The notes beneath the pieces are model-generated. The model was not told the DNA's origin, ran no database searches, and worked only from the letters and a program-made list of their open reading frames with translations. From the NCBI GenBank assembly GCA_001600635.1, contig BCKL01000038.1:153367-217366 (forward strand): a stretch of 64,000 nt of DNA, written 5' to 3'. The translations under genes were made by a program, and so were the position numbers. Shown piece by piece: positions 31,330 to 42,237 of the stretch (position 1 is the stretch's first letter; the number at the start of each line of letters is the position of its first letter). Origin of the DNA: Leucosporidium creatinivorum. Lineage: Eukaryota > Basidiomycota > Microbotryomycetes > Leucosporidiales > Leucosporidiaceae.

Positions 31330-34300
31330 TCACTCGGGCACCACGACCCAAGCCTCCTCCTCCAACCACTGCATCCACCTCCTCAGATACCCCGAGCCTT
31401 TGGATACCGTCTCCGAGTCGCCCACTACGACGAGTTGGCGGCGAGGGCGGGTCATGGCTCTGCTCTCGGTTTCGAGCGTCAGCGTCAGCGAGGGGAGGGA
31501 GGAACAAAGGAAAAGAAGGGAGAGGGAGAGGGAGAGCAGACTCGAGAGAGGAGACGTACACGTTCAACCGCCGCTCGTCGGCTAGGAATCCAACTTCTCC
31601 CTGTTTCGGCGGCGCCCAAACCCAACCCATCAGCCCTCCTCACTCGCCACCTCCCAAAGAAAAAGAGGAGAGAGAAGAAAAAAAAAACCAAAAACTCACC
31701 GTCTCATTACTCCTAACCAAACTAATCACCACCACCTCATTCTCTCTCCCCTGCATGCCGTCCACGCTGCCCACCTCGATCTCCGGCCAGCGTGGGTGGA
31801 GGAGCGAGGCGAGGAGCGTCACTTGGGCGTTGTAGGGTGAGAGGAGGGTGATGTAGGAGGGTGGGAGACCGGACGCGATCTGATGGCGCGGGCGTGGGCG
31901 TGGGTTGGGTTGGGATGGGATGGGTCAGCGAGCGCCGAGGAGCACGCCGAGAAGGGGGAAGAGAGCGAGAGAGAGAGAGAGAGACAACGCACGAGTTGTT
32001 CCACGTATTTGACACACAGATCCGCCTCATTCTCGTTTGACTTGGAGGAAGCGCCGAAGGAGCTTGAGCCTGAGTCGCCCGAACGCTCGTACATGGCGAG
32101 ACCGGCGGCTGTGGCGGAGCGGACGTAAGGGATGTGATGTGAGGAGGAGGAGGCGGAGAGAGGAGGAAGGGAGAGAGACCAAGTCAGTCACCCACCCGCG
32201 CTGCGCCGAGCTCAAAACCGGCCGAAACGAAAGAAAGAGAAAGCAGCCCAACTCGACTCACTATCAATGAACACGACCTCCTCCCCCAGTACACCCTCGT
32301 CCCCTGCCCCTCCCTCCTTCTCCCCACCATCATCGATCAACCCACTCACTCTCCGCTCGGCGCACCCCTCACTAACCCTCAGCTCCCCGCCATACATCTC
32401 GCGACTCGGAAACTGACAGATCTTGTCGTTGAACCGGTACGAGGTGGACAGCATGGTGCGAATGGTGGGGCCGTGGAGGGCGAGGAGGCGTTCGAACAAG
32501 GTCAAAGCTAGGGCGGAGGAAGGAGCTAGAGGGAAGGGTTTGCTGAGGGTGCTGGTGGGTAGAGGTGGAGGTGGGGGAGAGGGGGGGAGGGAGAGGGCGT
32601 CGAGCGAGGGAGGAGGAGGAGCTGGCGCTGAGGCTGAGGACGAGTCCGAGTTCGAGACGGCGGTAGAGTCTTGTGTTCTCGGCTGCACTGGCGTCGGTTC
32701 GTCTTCGTCCATTGGAGGAGGACAAGTCGAAGGTAGAGGAGGCGTCTTCTCCTTGATCTTGATCTCCTCCTTCTTCTGCGACGATGAGGGTTTCTTCTTC
32801 TTCCCCTCCTTCGCTCCCCCCGCCGAGGAGCTCGAGTGCGAATCAAGCGTTTTGATCGTCGGCGGTAGTTGTAGATGATCTCCGGCCTATTCAAGCGGAT
32901 TCACAGCAAGTCAGCAATCGATCATCCAGCACTGCGAGAAAGGAAGGGGGAGCGGTCGGACGCCCAGCCCAACGCACCAGGATAAGTTTGGTCGCTCTCG
33001 GTTGATTGGCGAGAGGGATCCAACATGCCGGCTCAGTCGCTTGAGCAGCTTCATCAATGACGATGACGTCGAAATGCTGGTTCTGGAGGACTCGGGAGCC
33101 GACTCTATCTCGAAAACGAAACGTAAACTCGAGGATCAGCGCCTGCACCGAGCTCATCGCCGAGCCTTCCAATCTCGAAAGCGAGCAAGAGAACGAACGC
33201 ACCCATGAGTCGTCCCCAAAACGACCTTCGCCTTCCCCACCACCTCCCCCACCACACCCCCTTCCCTCCTCCTATAATCCCTCCTCAACTCCCTGACCTC
33301 TTCCCAGCCTTTCTTCCTCTCGCTCCCCCTCACTCTCTCCTTGCCTGTGATCCGGAGCTTCCCTTCAAGCGACTCGAGCTCGGATTTGATGTCGGAAACG
33401 AGTGCTGAACTGTCGGAGGAGGAAGACTGCGAATCGAGCGTGTAGGGTGTTAGGGAAGTGAGCACTCGGGCGGGGTGGCCGAGCCTTGTCAATGGAATCG
33501 GCGTCGCCAGCCTCGGGTCCACGTCGGTGGGGGCGGAGGCGGAAGCCGGGCGCGCGGCGAGACGTTGCAAGACGTTATCGACGCTGAGGTTGGATCCACC
33601 GCAGACGAGCACTCGCAGGCGTTGGACGAGGACCAACTGCCGAATCACTTCGACGAGGGTTTGGGTCTTGCCCGTCCCTGGTGGGCCCCAGATTAGGGAG
33701 AGAGAGTGCGTGAGAGCATGTTGGACGGCGAGTTGTTGGGAGGGGTTTAGAGTTGGGTCGAGGAAGGTGAAGGAGGGGGGGAGGGGGGTTGGAGGAGCGG
33801 GCGAGGTCAGGCCTAGGCAGAGGGAGATCAAGGGTGGGAGAGGAGAGGGGGAGGCGAGTTGGCGGATGACGGAGCGGAGGGAGGTGATTTGTCGGGTGTA
33901 GGTAGATGGATTGGAGAGCTTGAGCCTGTTCAGAGCGGGAGGGAGCGAGATGGCCGAATGAAGATCAGCACAAGGTCGTACAGCTACAGACAGAGCAAGC
34001 ACGTACAATCGAATGTTCGAAGGTACTTCCTCGCCTTCATCCCCCTCATTAGCACCCTTGCCGGCTCCTCCCAGTGCAATGACGATTCGCTTCTCCTGCA
34101 CCTTCCAAACGACGCCCTCCAAGCCTCCTTCTGTACCCTGTCCACCCCCAACAGCAGTCGTATCACCCTTCTTCTTTCCCTTGCCCTTTGCTCCAGCTCC
34201 AGCTCCATCGCCCAGCAAGACGACACTATCGCCCGACCTAAATCCATGAGGAGGGAACGTCTGCTCCTGATGATGGGCCAAGCTGCGTTCCAAGTCGACT

Positions 34301-34482
34301 AGAGTTCGTCCGCCTAGTCCTAGAGAGGTTTTGACGGGTTGTAGTCCGCCGAGAGCGATTCCTTTGGCAACGAGTTGGTTGAAGGGGCATGAGGAGGAGA
34401 GGAGAGAGGTTTCAGTTTCTTCGGCTTGTTGCTCGGCTGAGGTGAGGGTGATGAGCCGTTCGAGGAAGGGGATTGCCGTCAT
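31330..34482 (-). CDS. HCS1: SF1B DNA/RNA helicase, IGHMBP2 / Hcs1 (DNA helicase A) type
   Basis: A Upf1-like 5'-3' helicase matching yeast Hcs1 and human IGHMBP2. The N-terminal barrel region includes FRSGDSVVLLGDG. Motifs in order: LNPSQQLAVQHAL (Q), LIWGPPGTGKTQTLVEVI (I, near 33685), VLVCGGSNLSVDNVLQRL (Ia), VLGTTHG, FDVIVIDEAAQATEP (II, near 33050), LILAGDHLQLPPT (III), LSTSYRFNDKICQFPS (IV), VGSVDGMQGRENEVVVISLV (V) and FLADERRLNVAMTRPRRQLV (VI). All catalytic residues are present. An insert of about 130 residues rich in Pro, Ser and Lys separates motifs III and IV. The start is the ATG at 34482 (MTAIPFLERLITLTSAEQQ). The end is EEEAWVVVPE with the stop at 31330. Relatives act in translation and tRNA/ribosome-linked surveillance or with DNA polymerase alpha. 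It shares a 318-nt divergent promoter with the FHA gene. Confidence 0.93.
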
Positions 34483-34800
34483 GAGAGGTGATGAGGTGCA
34501 GAAGACTAGGTAAAAGTAGGAGGGAAAGAGGGTGCTTCACGTGACCCGAGCTGACTTGAGGACTTTGAAACGGCCAAGTCGAAACTCGCTCTCTTGTGCT
34601 CGTCGTCGTCGTCGCTCGTCTCGCCAGGGCCACGAGTTACTCCTCTACTAATCCCTTTATTCAACACCCTATTACAGCCTCTTACTTTACGACTATAGCC
34701 CCTACCTTACCGACCCACAGCTCCAAGCAACAGAGCTCTCTCCCTCGGCCATCACTCAACTCGCCCTCTCTCCCGCTCTCAGCGCTCAGCTCAGCCCCAA
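34483..34800. promoter_or_regulatory. Divergent promoter between helicase and FHA genes
   Basis: The two starts are head to head (34482 minus, 34801 plus). The 318 nt between them become pyrimidine-rich on each coding strand towards the starts. No TATA box stands out. Shared regulation is possible but not shown by the sequence. Confidence 0.5.
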
Positions 34801-35365
34801 ATGGAAGCGCCTTCGCTATTCGTGTACGGCACAGTGAGCCTCGTGCGGCCAGGAGGATCCATTCGCCGCACCACCTCACTCTCCTCACCTCAATTCACCT
34901 TTGGCCGCCTCTCCTCCTCTGACTGCCGCTTGCTCTTTGAAACGGTATCCAAATTGCACGCTCGTATCGTCGTAGATCAGCAGGCTCCTTATCAGGTATG
35001 TTTGGAGTCTCCTTGGGTGCTAGAAGGGGATGTAGAGTGGTACAGCGCGCGAGGAGAGACGGGCCAAACAAGTTGACTGACTCGCTTGAACGACCAAACA
35101 ACAGGCCGTCCTCGAAGTACACGGCGTCAATGGCCTTACGCACAATGGTATCGTCTACGAGAAGGGGTATGTCTTTCTCATCTACTCTGCTGTACTACAG
35201 CACAAGCTGGAGCTGACCCCTCGGCGCTCCCTCATCTCTCCCTCTCCCGACTCCGACTCGACTACGCAGATGCCACATTCCCCTCGAGAACAACGACGAA
35301 ATCATCATCTGCGATCGGACCTTCCGTTGGGGAAGCGCTACTGCTCTCGAGATCAACGTAGACGT
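34801..35365 (+). other. FHA domain coding region
   Basis: Three exons encode the conserved GR, S-x2-H, LE-x2-G-x-NG and N positions of an FHA phosphothreonine-binding fold. The last strand, DRTFRW, is close to the DRSFRY end of the Ki-67 FHA domain. Confidence 0.85.
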
Positions 35366-38300
35366 GAGTACTTAGTCGGCTCGCTTCGTTCTCCCTTCCC
35401 CTCGCTGATCTCGTCGCCCACATTCCTCTCCTCCAACGCTCACTCGCATCATCCACAACACAACACAACACAACACAACAGTCCCCGCCCCCCTCGCAAC
35501 GTCGCGCCCCGCGTCAATCCCTCATCTCCGCCGCCCTCGCCATCACTCCCTCCAAGCCCAAACCCTCTTGCGCCTCGGCCTCGGCCTCACCCTCAATCTT
35601 CAGCAACCTTCTCTCGCCTTTCAGATCCACCTCACCCTCGGAGGAGGAGGAGGAGAAGAAGGAGAGGATCATCGCCCCCTCGTTCCCTCTCGGCGAAGAG
35701 GAGGACGAGGAGCTCATGTCCTGGGATGAGAGGCCCGACAATTTGTTGGATGGGGAGAAGGGGGATTTGATCACGTGGGATGAGATTGAGGAGGAGGAGG
35801 ATTTGGTCGAGGAGTTGGAGAAGGCCGCTGCTGTCGCTTTGGCTGAGAGGGAGGCGCCCAGCACCCCTCAGCGCGGGCGGGGGGAGCAGCTCGAGATGGG
35901 AGAGACGCCGTCGTTGCCTAACAGGGTATGACTCTTCCCTCCTCTTCCCTTCTACCTCTCCTTCTCTCGCTAACCCTCCCTCCAACCCGAAACAGGCCCG
36001 CTCCCTCCGCCCCCCCTCCTCCGCCCAAGCCTCCCAACGCACCACCACCACCACCGCCCTCGACTCACCCCGCTCCGCCCGCCGGCGTTCCATGCGCATG
36101 ACGATCGTCCCTTGCTCTCGCGCGGAGGAGTGGATTCGGGAGCGTGACGAGAAACGTCGGGAGGAGGAGAGGGTGTTGCGCGAACAGGCTCGCCTTGAGG
36201 TGGAGGTGGAGCAGAGGGAGAGGGAGAGGGAGCAGGAGGTGACGCCCGTGAAGCAGAGGGCTGGATCGGCTAGCCCCAGCTCGAGTGGAAAGGGAAGGGT
36301 GATGGCCTCGGATAGGTCGAGCACGAGTAGGAGGATCTCGGCGTTGCTGTTGAGTCCTGCGGGGTCTTTGGGGTCGGCGCAGGGAGAGGAGGAGGAGGAG
36401 GAGGAGGAGGAGGAGAGTAGCGATGAGGAGGACGAGGGGTTGGAAGATGACGAGGAGCAGAGCTTTGACGGAGAGGAGGAGGAGCCTCAACCCCAGCCCG
36501 AGCCCGAGCCCGAGCAGGAAAGGGAGGATCTAGTAGCGCTCGCAGCCGCCGTCCCTCTGCCCGAATCGCCTTACGTACGTTCTCTCCCTCTCGCGCTCTC
36601 GGCTCGGCTCGGCTCGGCGCTGCGCTGACCCCCTCGACTGTCGACATCAAACAGAACACTCCCACCGCCACCCCCCTTCCCTTCACTCCCACTCCCGTCG
36701 CCCACCAACAGCAACAGCAAACGACACCAATCTACATCCCCCGCTATTCCGCCCGTCGGCACTCCCTCCGCGAGAAGGTATTGATTCGGAGCGCGATCAA
36801 GAAGGCGATCACGCCGCCCATCACCCCTGCCGCCGCAGTCGTCGCTGTTGCTCCTTCCCCCGCTACTAGTAGGGTTGAGGTGCGGGAGCAGGAGCAGGTG
36901 CAGGAGCCCGAGCTCGGGGAGGGAGAGGTCGAGATGAGGGATGATTTCGCTGATGGAGAGGACGAGGAGGAGGAGGAAGAGGAGGATGTGATCGTCCCCG
37001 TCGCAGTGAGGGTCAGGCCGGAGGACGTTCCTCTTCCCGAGTCGCCCGCCGTCGCTGTACGTTGCTCCTCCCTCCCTCCCTTCTCCTCGCGAGGTCGGGC
37101 GCGCTCGCTGACCCTCTCTCTCACACACGTCTTCCGATACAATACAATACAGCTCAACACCCCCTCCCGCCCTCAGCAGCAAACCCAAACGCTCACACCC
37201 TCCTTCTCGCGCAACACGCCTCGTGACTCGATGGACTTGATGGTGGTCCGAAGCGCTGAGAGGGTCTCGAGCGCGCAGAGACTGTTGGGCGCGGAGACGG
37301 AGGTGGAGGATCATGGGGAGGGGAGTGAGAGTGAGAGTGAGAGTGAGGAGGATAGTGAGAGCGAGAGCGAAGAGGGAGAGATGGACGAGGAGGAGGAGGA
37401 GGTGGGAGGATCGCCTTCGCCGGTGAGTTGCTCATCGATTTCGCTCACCGCCGAGAGAAAAGGACTGACGCCCTCACTCGCGATGTGATAGGCCATCCGT
37501 TTCGCCCCCGCTACCACTTTCGCGCCGTCCCAATCGCCCGCCATGCCTCGTTCGACCCCAGCTCTCCAACGCGCCGCCGCTGTTCCTCTTCCCGAGACGC
37601 CTGCTGTTCGTCTCGCTCTTCTCTCTTGCTTTCTCGCTCTCACTGACCCTCCCGCTGCAACGAACAGGGCGCCCTCTACTCCTACACCCCTAAACCCTCC
37701 ATCGGGCTCGGCGCTCCTTCCACTCCTCGCACTCCCGCTTCGATGGCTCAGACGACCGATTCGCCGCTCTCCTCCTCCGCTGCGGCTGGGAGCAGCAAGA
37801 CCCCCCGCTCGATCCCCCTCCCCGAGACGCCCGAGGGAGCGAGACCTTATGCTGTTCAAGCGGCGACGCCCGAACAGAGTGGTGGAGAGAAGAGGAGGGA
37901 GATGATGATGAGTACGCCGATGAGGGAGGCGTTTAGGAGTGAGATGACTAGTCCTGTTACTGGAGTGCGTCCGCTTTCTCTTTCTCTGGAAGTCACGTCG
38001 TGACTCTCTTTCGAGCGCCGAGCTGACCCCCCTCCTTCACCTCAAACAGCACCGTCTCCTCCCCACTCCCCGTTCAGCCCTCCGCTCCTCCACCAAACCC
38101 CCCTTCCCCTCCTCCCCCAACGCCCGTCGCAAATCCGCTCGCGGCTTCCTCGCTCCTTTCCTCGCCGCTCCTCCGTCGACCAAGCGCAAGAGCGTCGTGT
38201 TTGATGAGCAGTTGTACATTCAGGAGATTGTGGATATTCGGGATAAGACGATGCATTGGGATGAGAGGCTTGATGGGGCGCCTACCGAGGAGAAGGAGAA

Positions 38301-40820
38301 GGGGGAGGTGCAAGAGAGGAAGCAGGGTGCGAGGACGAGTTTGTTCGGCTCGCCGGCGCCGAGGGTGAGTTCTCCTACTCTCTCGCGTTTCTCTTCCGCG
38401 CGTCCAACTGACCTGATCCTCGAGCCACAGACCCCTCAGGCAACGATCATCGCTCGAGCGAACACCACCCCCACCACCTCCGTTCGCAAAGCCCAACGCA
38501 ACCCTCACCTCTCCGCATCCCTCACCGCTTCGCTCCTCAAATCCGTATCGCCTTTCGCCCTCCCTCCCGTCGGTACTCAGAACCAGGGAACGCCTCGAGG
38601 AGCGACGTTCGGAACGCCCAGCAAGTCGAGTTCGGCGATGAAGGCGAGTACGCCGAGGAAGGCGGGGAGAGTGGCTACGCCTGCGAGGGAGGGAGGAGAG
38701 GAGGCGAGTGGGACGCCGGTCAGGCTGTCGACGCCTGGATCGGTTAGGAGGAAGGCTGGGAAGGTCGCTACGCCTAAGCAGCCCGAGCAGCAGCAGCAGC
38801 AGAGGCAGGAGCTCAGCGCTTCGGTCGTTGCCCAGCGTCAGATTGAGGTGAGTCCGATTTGCGGCTTCTCTCGTTCGGCTCTCGCTAACCTCCAGCTTGA
38901 CTGCAGATCCAACAGCTTCTCGCTACCCCCGACTCAGCTCTTTCCTCCTCGACCCCGGCCGCTCCCAACACCATCGCTGCTCCCAAGTCCACCTCGGCCC
39001 TCATCGAGCGCATGGAAGCGCTGAGGAGGCGCTCCCTCCCTGCCCTGCAGATCAACTTTATCGAGCGCCCTGCCGCCAAGGAGGAGGAGCCCGAGGTGCT
39101 CATCCTCGACGACGACGCAGAGGAGACGCCCGTCGCCTCGACCTCTACTCCGACTCGCGACCTCCCCATCGCCTCAGTACCCACTCCCAACCTCTCCATT
39201 AGCCTCCGCCGCCTCTTCGCCGCCCCTGCCCCTCCTCAAGCGACGCCCAAATTCACGGGCCTTCGCTCCCTCTTCTCCATCCCTGGATCGCCAGCTCATT
39301 CGCCTCAGTTCGACGGAGTAGCAGAGATGCTCCGCACCCCCGTCGCCGCCGCGGTGGAGCCGACGCTCGCTCCTACGCCCGTCAACTCGCAGCCGTCCAC
39401 GCCGGTTCGCGAGGCTTCGCCCGAGCAGCATCATGAGGAGGGGAACGAGCCTTCCATCGGCCTCAACTCGGTGGACCTGGGATCGCATGGCGTCGGAATC
39501 GAGGCCGATATCCTCGCTGCTAGTGCGCTCAGGCCGAGCTTTATTGACGACGAGGTCTCGCCGCCTGTCTCGCCTTCGCCGAAAGAGAGTGAGGTCGAGG
39601 TCGAGCAGGTCGAGGCTGAAGACGAGGAGACGGTTGGGCAGCAAGAGCAAGAGCAGGAGCAGACCGAGGAAGTCGAGCAGGTCGAAGAGGAGCAGGTCGA
39701 GTCGGCGCCCGAGCAGCCGGTCGAGGAGGATCCGTCGCCTGTCGAGGAGCAGCCCGTCGAGGAGGAGCCCATCGTCGAGGAGGCCATCACTCCTGCACCT
39801 CGCAAGACTCGCACGACCCAGACTACCACGAGCAAGAAGTCGACTACTCGCAAGGCCGCCAAGCCCGTCGTCGCCGAGCCCGAGCAGGAGGATTCCGCCG
39901 ACTCGGAGCCTACGCCCGCTCCTGCTCCCAAGCGCACTTCCGCCGCCAAGTCTACTCGAGGCTCTACTCGCTCGACCCGTACCGCCAAGGCCACCGACTC
40001 GGATGGGGAGAGCCACGAGACGCCCGCTGCACCTGCTCGTCGTAGTCGAGTGGTCAAGAAGGTCGAGCCTGTGGTCGTCGAGGCGGCCAAGGTCGAGGAC
40101 GAGCCGGAGGAGGGGGCAGAGGAGGTCGCTGTCGTCAAGCCTGCTCGCGGTCGAGCGGCGAAGGCCAAGGTTGTTGCCGAGGACGAGAAGCTCAAGCCCG
40201 TCAAGCGTGGACGCAAGATGGAGCCTGGTGAGTCCGAACCTTCCCCTTCTTCTTCTCGCAGCCATATGCTGACCTCATCGGCTCCACACAGTCGTCGAGG
40301 TCATCGTCGCTCCTGCTCGAGGTCGCCGAACCGTCGCCGCCAGGAAGGTCGTCGAGGTCGAGTCTTCGCACGAGTCCGACGCTGAGGTCGAGAAGGGTAC
40401 GCTAACTTGCTGCTCATCTTCACTCTACTCTTTGGCTAACCTACCTTCGCTTGCACAGTCGAGGAGAAGCCCGTACCGGTCAAGAAGGCCGCTCCTGCTC
40501 GCAAAAGTCGTGCCGCCAAGGCCCCCATCGCCGTCCTCGAAGACGAAGAGGAGGAGGAATCTGACGCCGCTCCGACCCCTGCACGCACTCGCGCGACTCG
40601 AGGCAAGCGCCCCATCCTCGAGCAGTCGAGCTCCGAGGACGCTGCTCCCTCCGCCGCTGCTCCCGCCAAGGCTACTAGGACTACTCGCACCAAGGCTGTC
40701 GAGTCGGAGAACTCGGCTCCCATCGCTCCTAAGGCTAGGCGAGCGCCCGTCAAGAAGGTGGTGAAGGAGGAGGAAGCGCCGGCGACGACGACGGGAAGGG
40801 CGCTGCGCGCGCGGAGGTAG
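34801..40820 (+). CDS. FHA-domain chromosomal protein with Ki-67-like motif order
   Basis: About 14 exons encode roughly 1,650 residues. The N-terminus is an FHA domain: FTFGRLSSSDCRLLFETVSK, LHARIVVD, LEVHGVNGLTHNGIVYEKG, IPLENNDEIIICDRTFRW (34801-35365). Next are acidic stretches with two WDE motifs (SWDERPDNLL, TWDEIEEEE) and four PLPE[ST]P repeats (36554, 37029, 37583, 37813), three of them ending exons. At 38188-38202 is KSVVF, a fit to the PP1-docking RVxF pattern, followed by HWDERLDG. At 39252-39340 come FTGLRSLFSIP and FDGVAEMLRTPV, which match the core of Ki-67 repeats. The C-terminal third is acidic, then rich in Lys/Arg with AT-hook-like RGR motifs (near 40145, 40205, 40320) and ends GRALRARR. 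SP/TP sites are very numerous, suggesting CDK control. Vertebrate Ki-67 has FHA, RVxF, repeats and a basic DNA-binding tail in the same order. The coding call and FHA are firm; homology to Ki-67 is a hypothesis. Confidence 0.85.
35455..35481 (+). repeat. ACAAC-type microsatellite against a 3' splice site
   Basis: About five CACAA/ACAAC units run into the acceptor ACAG just before TCCCCGCCC in the FHA gene. A similar ATACA repeat precedes the acceptor at 37151 in the same gene. Confidence 0.8.
36554..37832 (+). repeat. Four PLPE[ST]P motifs, three at exon ends
   Basis: Copies near 36554, 37029 and 37583 lie within a few codons of a 5' splice site; the first two are followed by an exon beginning with NTP or LNTP. 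The fourth (37813) is internal to an exon. This looks like amplification of an exon unit in the FHA gene. Confidence 0.7.
38182..38280 (+). other. RVxF-like PP1-docking candidate followed by a WDE motif
   Basis: The translation KRKSVVFDEQLYIQE contains K-S-V-V-F, matching [RK]-x-[VI]-x-F. About 18 residues later is MHWDERLDGAPT. Ki-67 and Repo-Man have an RVxF motif followed by an FDE-x-L element in a similar relation. Confidence 0.5.
39252..39344 (+). repeat. Ki-67-repeat-like pair
   Basis: Two adjacent segments, FTGLRSLFSIPG and FDGVAEMLRTPV, share the pattern F-x-G-[LV]-x-x-[LM]-[FL]-x-x-P. Ki-67 repeats carry the same core with LxG[IL]xE[LM]F[KQ]TP. They are 19 residues apart. Confidence 0.55.
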
Positions 40821-41003: not shown

Positions 41004-42237
41004 CTAACCACGCTGGACAAGGGTACTAAACATCTCTATGTGCCACTCGAGTAAAGGGTCCATCAACTGACGAGGATACCACTCCATCCTGGCGATCAGG
41101 CCGATGCACACTTTCGACCACCTCTTCTTCTTCTCCAGTTCCATCCTCATCACCTCCAAGTAGCTAGGATACCATCCAGCAAGCTCCCAATCGATGAGAC
41201 CGACCAGTTTCCCGTCGCGATCCACCAGAATATTGCGCTCGGCGATATCGCCATGCGTCAAGACGAGCCGGTGGAGCCGTGAGGTCGCTCTCAGGGCTGG
41301 CGGAAGCCCATCCCATCCATTGTACGCCTCCTTCTCCCAGAGCTCGACCATGAAGTCGACCATGGCGTCCTCATCACGGAAGGGGCCGACCTCTCGGTCA
41401 AAGCCTGGGAGGATGAGAGGCGCGGACCGGCCTGATAGGCTGCCGATCTGAGCATGCTTGGGCGGTGTGACGGATCGGAGGGTGTCCAAGATGCGCTTGA
41501 GAGCGACGTCGAGGGTGGTGTACTGCTCTCGACTGAGCGTCTGCAGAGGCCTATCCAGGGGTTCGCCATCGATGTAGGACATGAAAAGGTAGGCGACATT
41601 GTCGTTGATGTAGTATCCGAGGAACTGGGGTGGTGTAGTCGGTCGGCTTTTCGAACTCGAGCTCGAGAAGCGGCGAAACTCACCTTCGGCGCCTCGGCGA
41701 TGTAACGGCTTGCGAGCTCCATTGCCAGGCCCTCGTCCTCTCTGACCCACTCGGGAGCTCCGTACTTGACAATCATGTTGTTGGACATGTGCTTGACTCG
41801 GCGAGTCGGCCAGATGTCGAGCAAGAGCTTGCCGGGATCCGTCTCGACCTCACTCGGGGAAAGGAGCGCCGAGCCGTCGAACTGCAAAGTGCGGAGACCT
41901 TTAGTGGAGCTGATGGGCACATCAGACGTCTCTTGACTTACAGCGTACTTGGAGGGGCCTTTATACCAGCTCACAAAGTCAGCTTGATCGAGCAAGCTCC
42001 CCTTCTCACCGCCGTCAACGTTCGGCGGATTCTGAGAGCCTCGAGAAACGCGTCAGCCGTTTCTGCTGCCTTGACAGCGAGGCAGATACTCACCAAACGC
42101 GTTGGAGGAGAAGTGGACGAGCAAGCTGCAGTTGAGGCCTCCAAGCGCGAGACAGCGTCGACTTGCTTGCGCCGGGCTCGGACGAGCCTGCCCTTCAGTA
42201 GACGCGCCGCTGATACGATCGAGGCGAGTATTGGCAT
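41004..42237 (-). CDS. Aminoglycoside-phosphotransferase-fold (APH / choline kinase-like) protein
   Basis: Protein-kinase-like phosphotransferases of this family phosphorylate small molecules. The Brenner motif is RLVLTHGDIAERNILVDRD (near 41230) and the metal-binding region is LVGLIDWELAGWYPSYLEVM, so catalytic Asp, Asn and DxE/D-type residues are present. The nucleotide-binding lobe includes MIVKYGAPEWVREDEGLAME and VAYLFMSYIDGEPLDRPLQ. The start is the ATG at 42237 (MPILASIVSAARLL). I chose it because its frame joins in phase at TTG/GTGAGT to NPPNVDGGEKGSLLDQADF, while the longer overlapping frame upstream runs into a stop after splicing. The length is about 330 residues, usual for fungal APH proteins, which are often multicopy and of unknown substrate. 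The gene converges with the FHA gene. Confidence 0.85.

Follow-up and report, generated by a model that had tools for sequence, protein, structure and literature searches.

A probable bridgin gene with Ki-67-like motifs in a Microbotryomycete yeast close to Leucosporidium

The forward-strand interval 34801-40820 of the window, this being the whole stretch of 64,000 nucleotides analysed, is one real protein-coding gene, and the resemblance of its product to Ki-67 is real. The gene is very probably the bridgin gene (Bgi1) of a Leucosporidium-like yeast of the Microbotryomycetes, a placement made by architecture. Bridgin was described by Sridhar et al. (2021; PMC7794384), who call Ki67 its homologue in metazoans, and the account is repeated in a 2022 review (PMC9252888). 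The original prediction of a fungal Ki-67-like protein was right in outline, as regards motifs, layout and conservation, but does not amount to a discovery; the family is already published and most of the resemblance that had been seen is known. The features of the gene are as follows:

34801..40820, + strand, bridgin-like gene of 14 exons encoding 1658 aa, from in-frame splicing with splice sites picked by hand
34801..35363, + strand, N-terminal FHA region (exons 1-3, aa 1-117), ending with CDRTFRW plus 12 residues; Pfam FHA and PDB match
36551..36571, + strand, VPLPESP copy 1, end of phase-0 exon 5
37027..37047, + strand, VPLPESP copy 2, end of phase-0 exon 6
37582..37602, + strand, VPLPETP copy 3, end of phase-0 exon 8, also in relative P0004
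37812..37832, + strand, IPLPETP copy 4, middle of phase-0 exon 9, also in P0004
38188..38202, + strand, KSVVF (aa 866-870), putative RVxF-type PP1 docking site by motif, KSVV[FW] in relatives P0002-P0005
38254..38271, + strand, HWDERL element (aa 888-893), HWDE invariant in 5/5 aligned rows
39195..39227, + strand, unit 1, SISLRRLFAAP (aa 1160-1170), degenerate FxG-like, aligned with P0001 and P0002, low score against Ki-67 cores
39252..39284, + strand, unit 2, FTGLRSLFSIP (aa 1179-1189), by motif and alignment with relatives
39309..39341, + strand, unit 3, FDGVAEMLRTP (aa 1198-1208), nearest to the Ki-67 repeat core, by motif, alignment and core score
39798..40817, + strand, basic C-terminal region (aa 1361-1658), pI 9.93, net charge +16, with acidic stretches and two introns inside

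The 13 introns are all of the GT-AG type and 59-118 nt in length, and with hand splicing the reading frame is open throughout. The junctions of exons 8/9 and 9/10 are supported by P0004, although this is itself a predicted protein from a database, and that of exons 11/12 by P0002, the same residues being continuous in these relatives. Exons 4-11 are in phase 0 at both ends. All of the motifs named beforehand lie within the one spliced protein and in the order given, namely CDRTFRW (aa 100), KSVVF (866), HWDERL (888), FTGLRSLFSIP (1179) and FDGVAEMLRTP (1198), with RGR motifs at aa 248, 1477, 1497 and 1513. The very many SP/TP sites are also borne out, as the protein has 72 compared to a mean of 33.0 and a maximum of 49 in 60-residue block shuffles, none of 1000 reaching 72. 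The middle (aa 118-1280), presumably unstructured, is acidic with a computed pI of 4.84 and a net charge of -58, and has within it a basic stretch (aa 841-1150, pI 10.07). The Lys/Arg-rich tail that had been proposed is present at aa 1361-1658, where the last three RGR motifs lie, but it is interrupted by acidic stretches and its start is a chosen boundary, the C-terminal part from aa 1281 onward being net acidic (pI 5.18).

On either side of the gene there are minus-strand reading frames. That at 33154-34536 possesses a GPPGTGKT Walker A motif and is presumably a SMUBP2-type helicase, while that at 41004-41849 possesses HGDIAERNILVD and appears to us to resemble the aminoglycoside-phosphotransferase-type kinase fold.

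Three features of bridgin, these being an N-terminal FHA, a long acidic middle and a basic C-terminal region, are present in the window protein, which also shares a putative PP1 site with Bgi1 (CNAG_01903) of Cryptococcus neoformans, likewise a basidiomycete. Bgi1 has its FHA at aa 1-124, its putative PP1 site at 161-164, an acidic unstructured region (pI 4.65) in which a consensus motif is repeated 13 times, and a basic domain with a pI of 11.20 (PMC7794384). There are differences between the two proteins. The window protein is 1658 aa in length compared to 1295, its acidic middle has a pI of 4.84 rather than 4.65, its putative PP1 site lies far from the FHA instead of adjoining it, and its tail, with its acidic stretches, is less basic. 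Homologs of bridgin are reported from each of the basidiomycete subphyla, but not from each order (PMC7794384).

Recruitment of Bgi1 needs the KMN network and takes place via the FHA and the middle region, while its basic domain binds DNA or chromatin by charge and can be substituted by the basic region of Ki67; its level is highest at anaphase and the table of its pulldown includes PP1 (PMC7794384). By analogy with the Cryptococcus protein, the window protein would act as Bgi1 does, with its FHA reading phospho-threonine on an outer-kinetochore (KMN) protein. The FHA and the acidic, SP/TP-rich middle would together bring the protein to mitotic kinetochores, where the basic tail may attach through its charge to centromeric chromatin close by, so that the outer kinetochore would gain a further link to DNA. 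KSVV[FW] may dock PP1 for the removal of mitotic phosphates at anaphase.

A protein search with exon 12 identified two relatives among 7377 candidates, P0001 (E-value 1.3e-21) and P0002 (E-value 2.3e-13). With an alignment of these and the window protein as query, at least five of the 8000 candidates scored, a capped number, had E<=1, adding P0003, P0004 and P0005. P0004 is listed for Leucosporidium creatinivorum (Microbotryomycetes) as a hypothetical protein, and the window accordingly derives, in all probability, from a closely related fungus. The motifs whose conservation the original prediction put forward for testing are conserved in those relatives that cover them, though all five may be close kin and the conservation thus spans perhaps a short distance. 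In exon 11 (38431-38847), a block around SLTASLLKS[VI]SPFALPPV is also conserved in the window protein, P0002 and P0003.

With the protein scanned in two halves, the Pfam FHA domain was detected at aa 33-99 (E-value 4.2e-5), and the pattern DR[ST]FR[YW] occurs in none of 1000 block shuffles. The top of its 14 PDB matches is the FHA of Ki-67 (E-value 0.001, the next different protein being at 0.045), in an alignment that takes in the DRTFRW/DRSFRY end. However, this E-value does not show family membership, because the FHA segment of human Ki-67 itself matches unrelated FHAs down to 4.3e-5, the value for one from a mycobacterium. The likeness of the FHA to that of Ki-67 therefore stands as a best match, but not as a specific one. 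With a control FHA of the same genome (L004, one of eight Pfam FHA loci), Ki-67 was absent from the eight PDB matches. A protein search with the FHA region found no relatives at E<=1 among 100 candidates. Within the genome, all three matches to the window FHA are the gene's own exons, indicating that there is no second copy by sequence. The gene is missing from the eight Pfam FHA matches of its genome because its FHA is split by introns; for the same reason, little is shown by the lack of any match in this genome to the FHA segment of human Ki-67.

KSVVF is the one RVxF-type match in the protein. Its presence alone is not beyond chance, such a match occurring in 40.6% of 500 shuffles, and it is conservation that supports the putative site. 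KSVV[FW] and HWDE are kept in four of the five relatives (P0002-P0005), while P0001 does not extend to that part, and the block around KSVV[FW] has 32 invariant columns in these four and the window protein (n=5), including KRKSVV, EIVDIRD, HWDE and DG. The sequence thus has a conserved RVxF motif as in PP1 regulators, with putative PP1 docking. The PP1-docking claim of the original prediction is upheld as far as this conservation goes, but not in its Ki-67 form. No Pfam match to PP1_bind was found in the protein at E<=10, with HMMER filters that discard most weak matches, and the KiR-SLiM (FDxxLP, searched as FD..[LMK]P) is absent. The PP1 region of Ki-67 aligns to the protein no better than to shuffles, 328/500 reaching the score, or 263/1000 when confined to aa 855-910. 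The exon carrying KSVVF had no PDB match at E<=10, and a PP1_bind search of the genome gave no matches, but is uninformative since the control genomes gave none either. In the literature the KiR-SLiM is reported solely in Ki-67 and Repo-Man (PMC5005033).

The repeat core is suggestive as the most Ki-67-like part of the sequence. The pattern [LF]xG[ILVF]xx[LM][FL]xxP, written after the hits had been seen, occurs twice in the window protein and in none of 500 shuffles. Of the relatives, only P0001 and P0002 cover this region, and both have the FxG units. P0001 has two units of the strict pattern and P0002 none, its aligned units being looser (FAGLKRLMEVP and VEGLEELLRTP). Against the Ki-67 core LSGIAEMFKTP, unit 3 scores 37 and the best scores of P0001 and P0002 are 36 and 29, with 0/150 shuffles reaching the score in each case; this core was picked in the original prediction after the resemblance had been noticed, and the match is therefore suggestive only. 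With the core LAGFKELFQTP, 5/150 shuffles reach the best score of the window protein and 0/150 those of P0001 and P0002. The published 22-mer used for comparison to Ki-67 gives a score reached by 3/1000 shuffles within aa 1150-1215 but by 111/500 of the whole protein, and the likeness to the Ki-67 repeats is limited to an 11-residue core. K167R is the Pfam family name for these repeats; with HMMER filters discarding most weak matches, it gave no match in the window protein at E<=10. The proposed Ki-67-type repeats are thus retained as a core in unit 3 that outscores 150/150 shuffles, but not as K167R repeats. As proof of homology to Ki-67 the units were rejected, given the 22-mer and LAGFKELFQTP results and the strong result coming from a pre-picked core. 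FxG units are not mentioned for bridgin in the passages of PMC7794384 consulted.

Another repeated element, not mentioned in the original prediction, is [VI]PLPE[ST]P, which has four copies in the window protein while 0/1000 shuffles have one. These copies and the FxG units are candidates for the consensus repeat of bridgin. Exons 5 and 6 align to each other above shuffles (z 5.7, 0/200), in part via acidic runs, as do several others among the 28 pairs of exons that were compared. From its sequence, growth of the gene through exon duplication is possible.

Candidates for other kinetochore genes were identified in the same genome. At L009 (G000:C1:936484-939570) there is a part-match to Pfam CENP-C_C over the cut-off (E-value 2.0e-4), with an adjoining frame containing RRSSRQRLQPLEYWRNE, which we take to be the CENP-C signature; Pfam gave no match with that frame alone. 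The CENP-C-type match, along with one to Mis13/Dsn1 (1.7e-5), was counted in favour of the bridgin reading. A search for CENP-T gave one match above the cut-off, with five more under it, and at L010 (G000:C6:73975-77085) a CENP-T histone fold is split by two introns, matching Pfam CENP-T_C at 2e-17 after splicing. The possession of CENP-T is a difference from Bgi1 in C. neoformans, and bridgin and CENP-T coexist in this genome if the filing as bridgin is right. The published link between bridgin and the loss of other linkers is consequently not followed here in its simplest form. Ustilago maydis, too, retains CENP-T together with bridgin (PMC7794384).

It is very improbable that the gene is a direct counterpart of Ki-67 (MKI67), meaning a protein that coats the surface of mitotic chromosomes, recruits PP1 as Ki-67 does and carries Ki-67 repeats. 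The two proteins do share an FHA ending with DR[ST]FR[YW], a basic C-terminal region and an RVxF-type site ahead of FxGxxEMxxTP-like units, and both are rich in SP/TP sites. The leading place of Ki-67 among the PDB matches, the scores of unit 3 and its counterparts in P0001 and P0002, and the 22-mer result within aa 1150-1215 all speak for a counterpart. Against these stand the matches of the Ki-67 FHA to unrelated FHAs, the 22-mer and PP1-region scores that shuffles reach, and the lack of any PP1_bind, K167R or KiR-SLiM match in the window protein. The repeats also differ, with the PLPE[ST]P copies lying on several phase-0 exons and those of Ki-67 in one exon (PMC8354752). Against the chromosome-surface role that had been suggested is the characterised fungal relative, Bgi1, which works at the kinetochore (PMC7794384). 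Ki-67, noted beforehand as usually described as a vertebrate protein, has been reported outside vertebrates as well. Booth (2014) lists Ki-67 sequences of Ciona, Saccoglossus, Hydra and Trichoplax in the legend to a figure, and the protein is reported in Platynereis, where the authors knew of no validated orthologues reported in other invertebrates. Repo-Man (CDCA2) likewise has an RVxF-type PP1 site with an acidic/aromatic element downstream, but its PP1 region, which is common to Ki-67 and present in PDB, is unmatched by the window protein.

An unrelated CDK-regulated FHA scaffold, be it Mdc1-like, forkhead-type or other, in which the short motifs are convergent, is considered very unlikely. 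The weak single-sequence similarity of the FHA and the frequency with which shuffles contain one RVxF match are in keeping with it, but the architecture is that of bridgin and the KSVV[FW]...HWDE block is conserved in 5/5 of the sequences covering it. A clear grouping of the FHA with another family, for example Mdc1- or Fkh-type, had been named beforehand as speaking against the Ki-67 reading. The Pfam scan contains neither BRCT nor forkhead domains, and none of the 14 PDB matches is to MDC1. The Mdc1- and forkhead-type readings were dropped on the absence of their domains.

With the gene taken as bridgin, a further reading may be put forward tentatively, and as one that we doubt more than we favour. 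The RVxF block and the FxGxxE[ML]xxTP units could be homologous between bridgin and Ki-67 and not convergent, in which case animals and fungi would have inherited an FHA-PP1-FxG-basic scaffold from their common ancestor, and the repeat core of Ki-67 (the FKELF epitope motif) would be a kinetochore or chromosome docking motif that predates animals.

The finding adds a probable bridgin from the Microbotryomycetes, along with the conserved KSVV[FW]...HWDE block, the FxG units and the PLPE[ST]P copies, all of which could be traced across fungal and animal lineages. Should the FxG units prove to be shared with Ki-67, the unexplained repeat core of the latter would become approachable in a simple yeast, in a protein that would act at the kinetochore.
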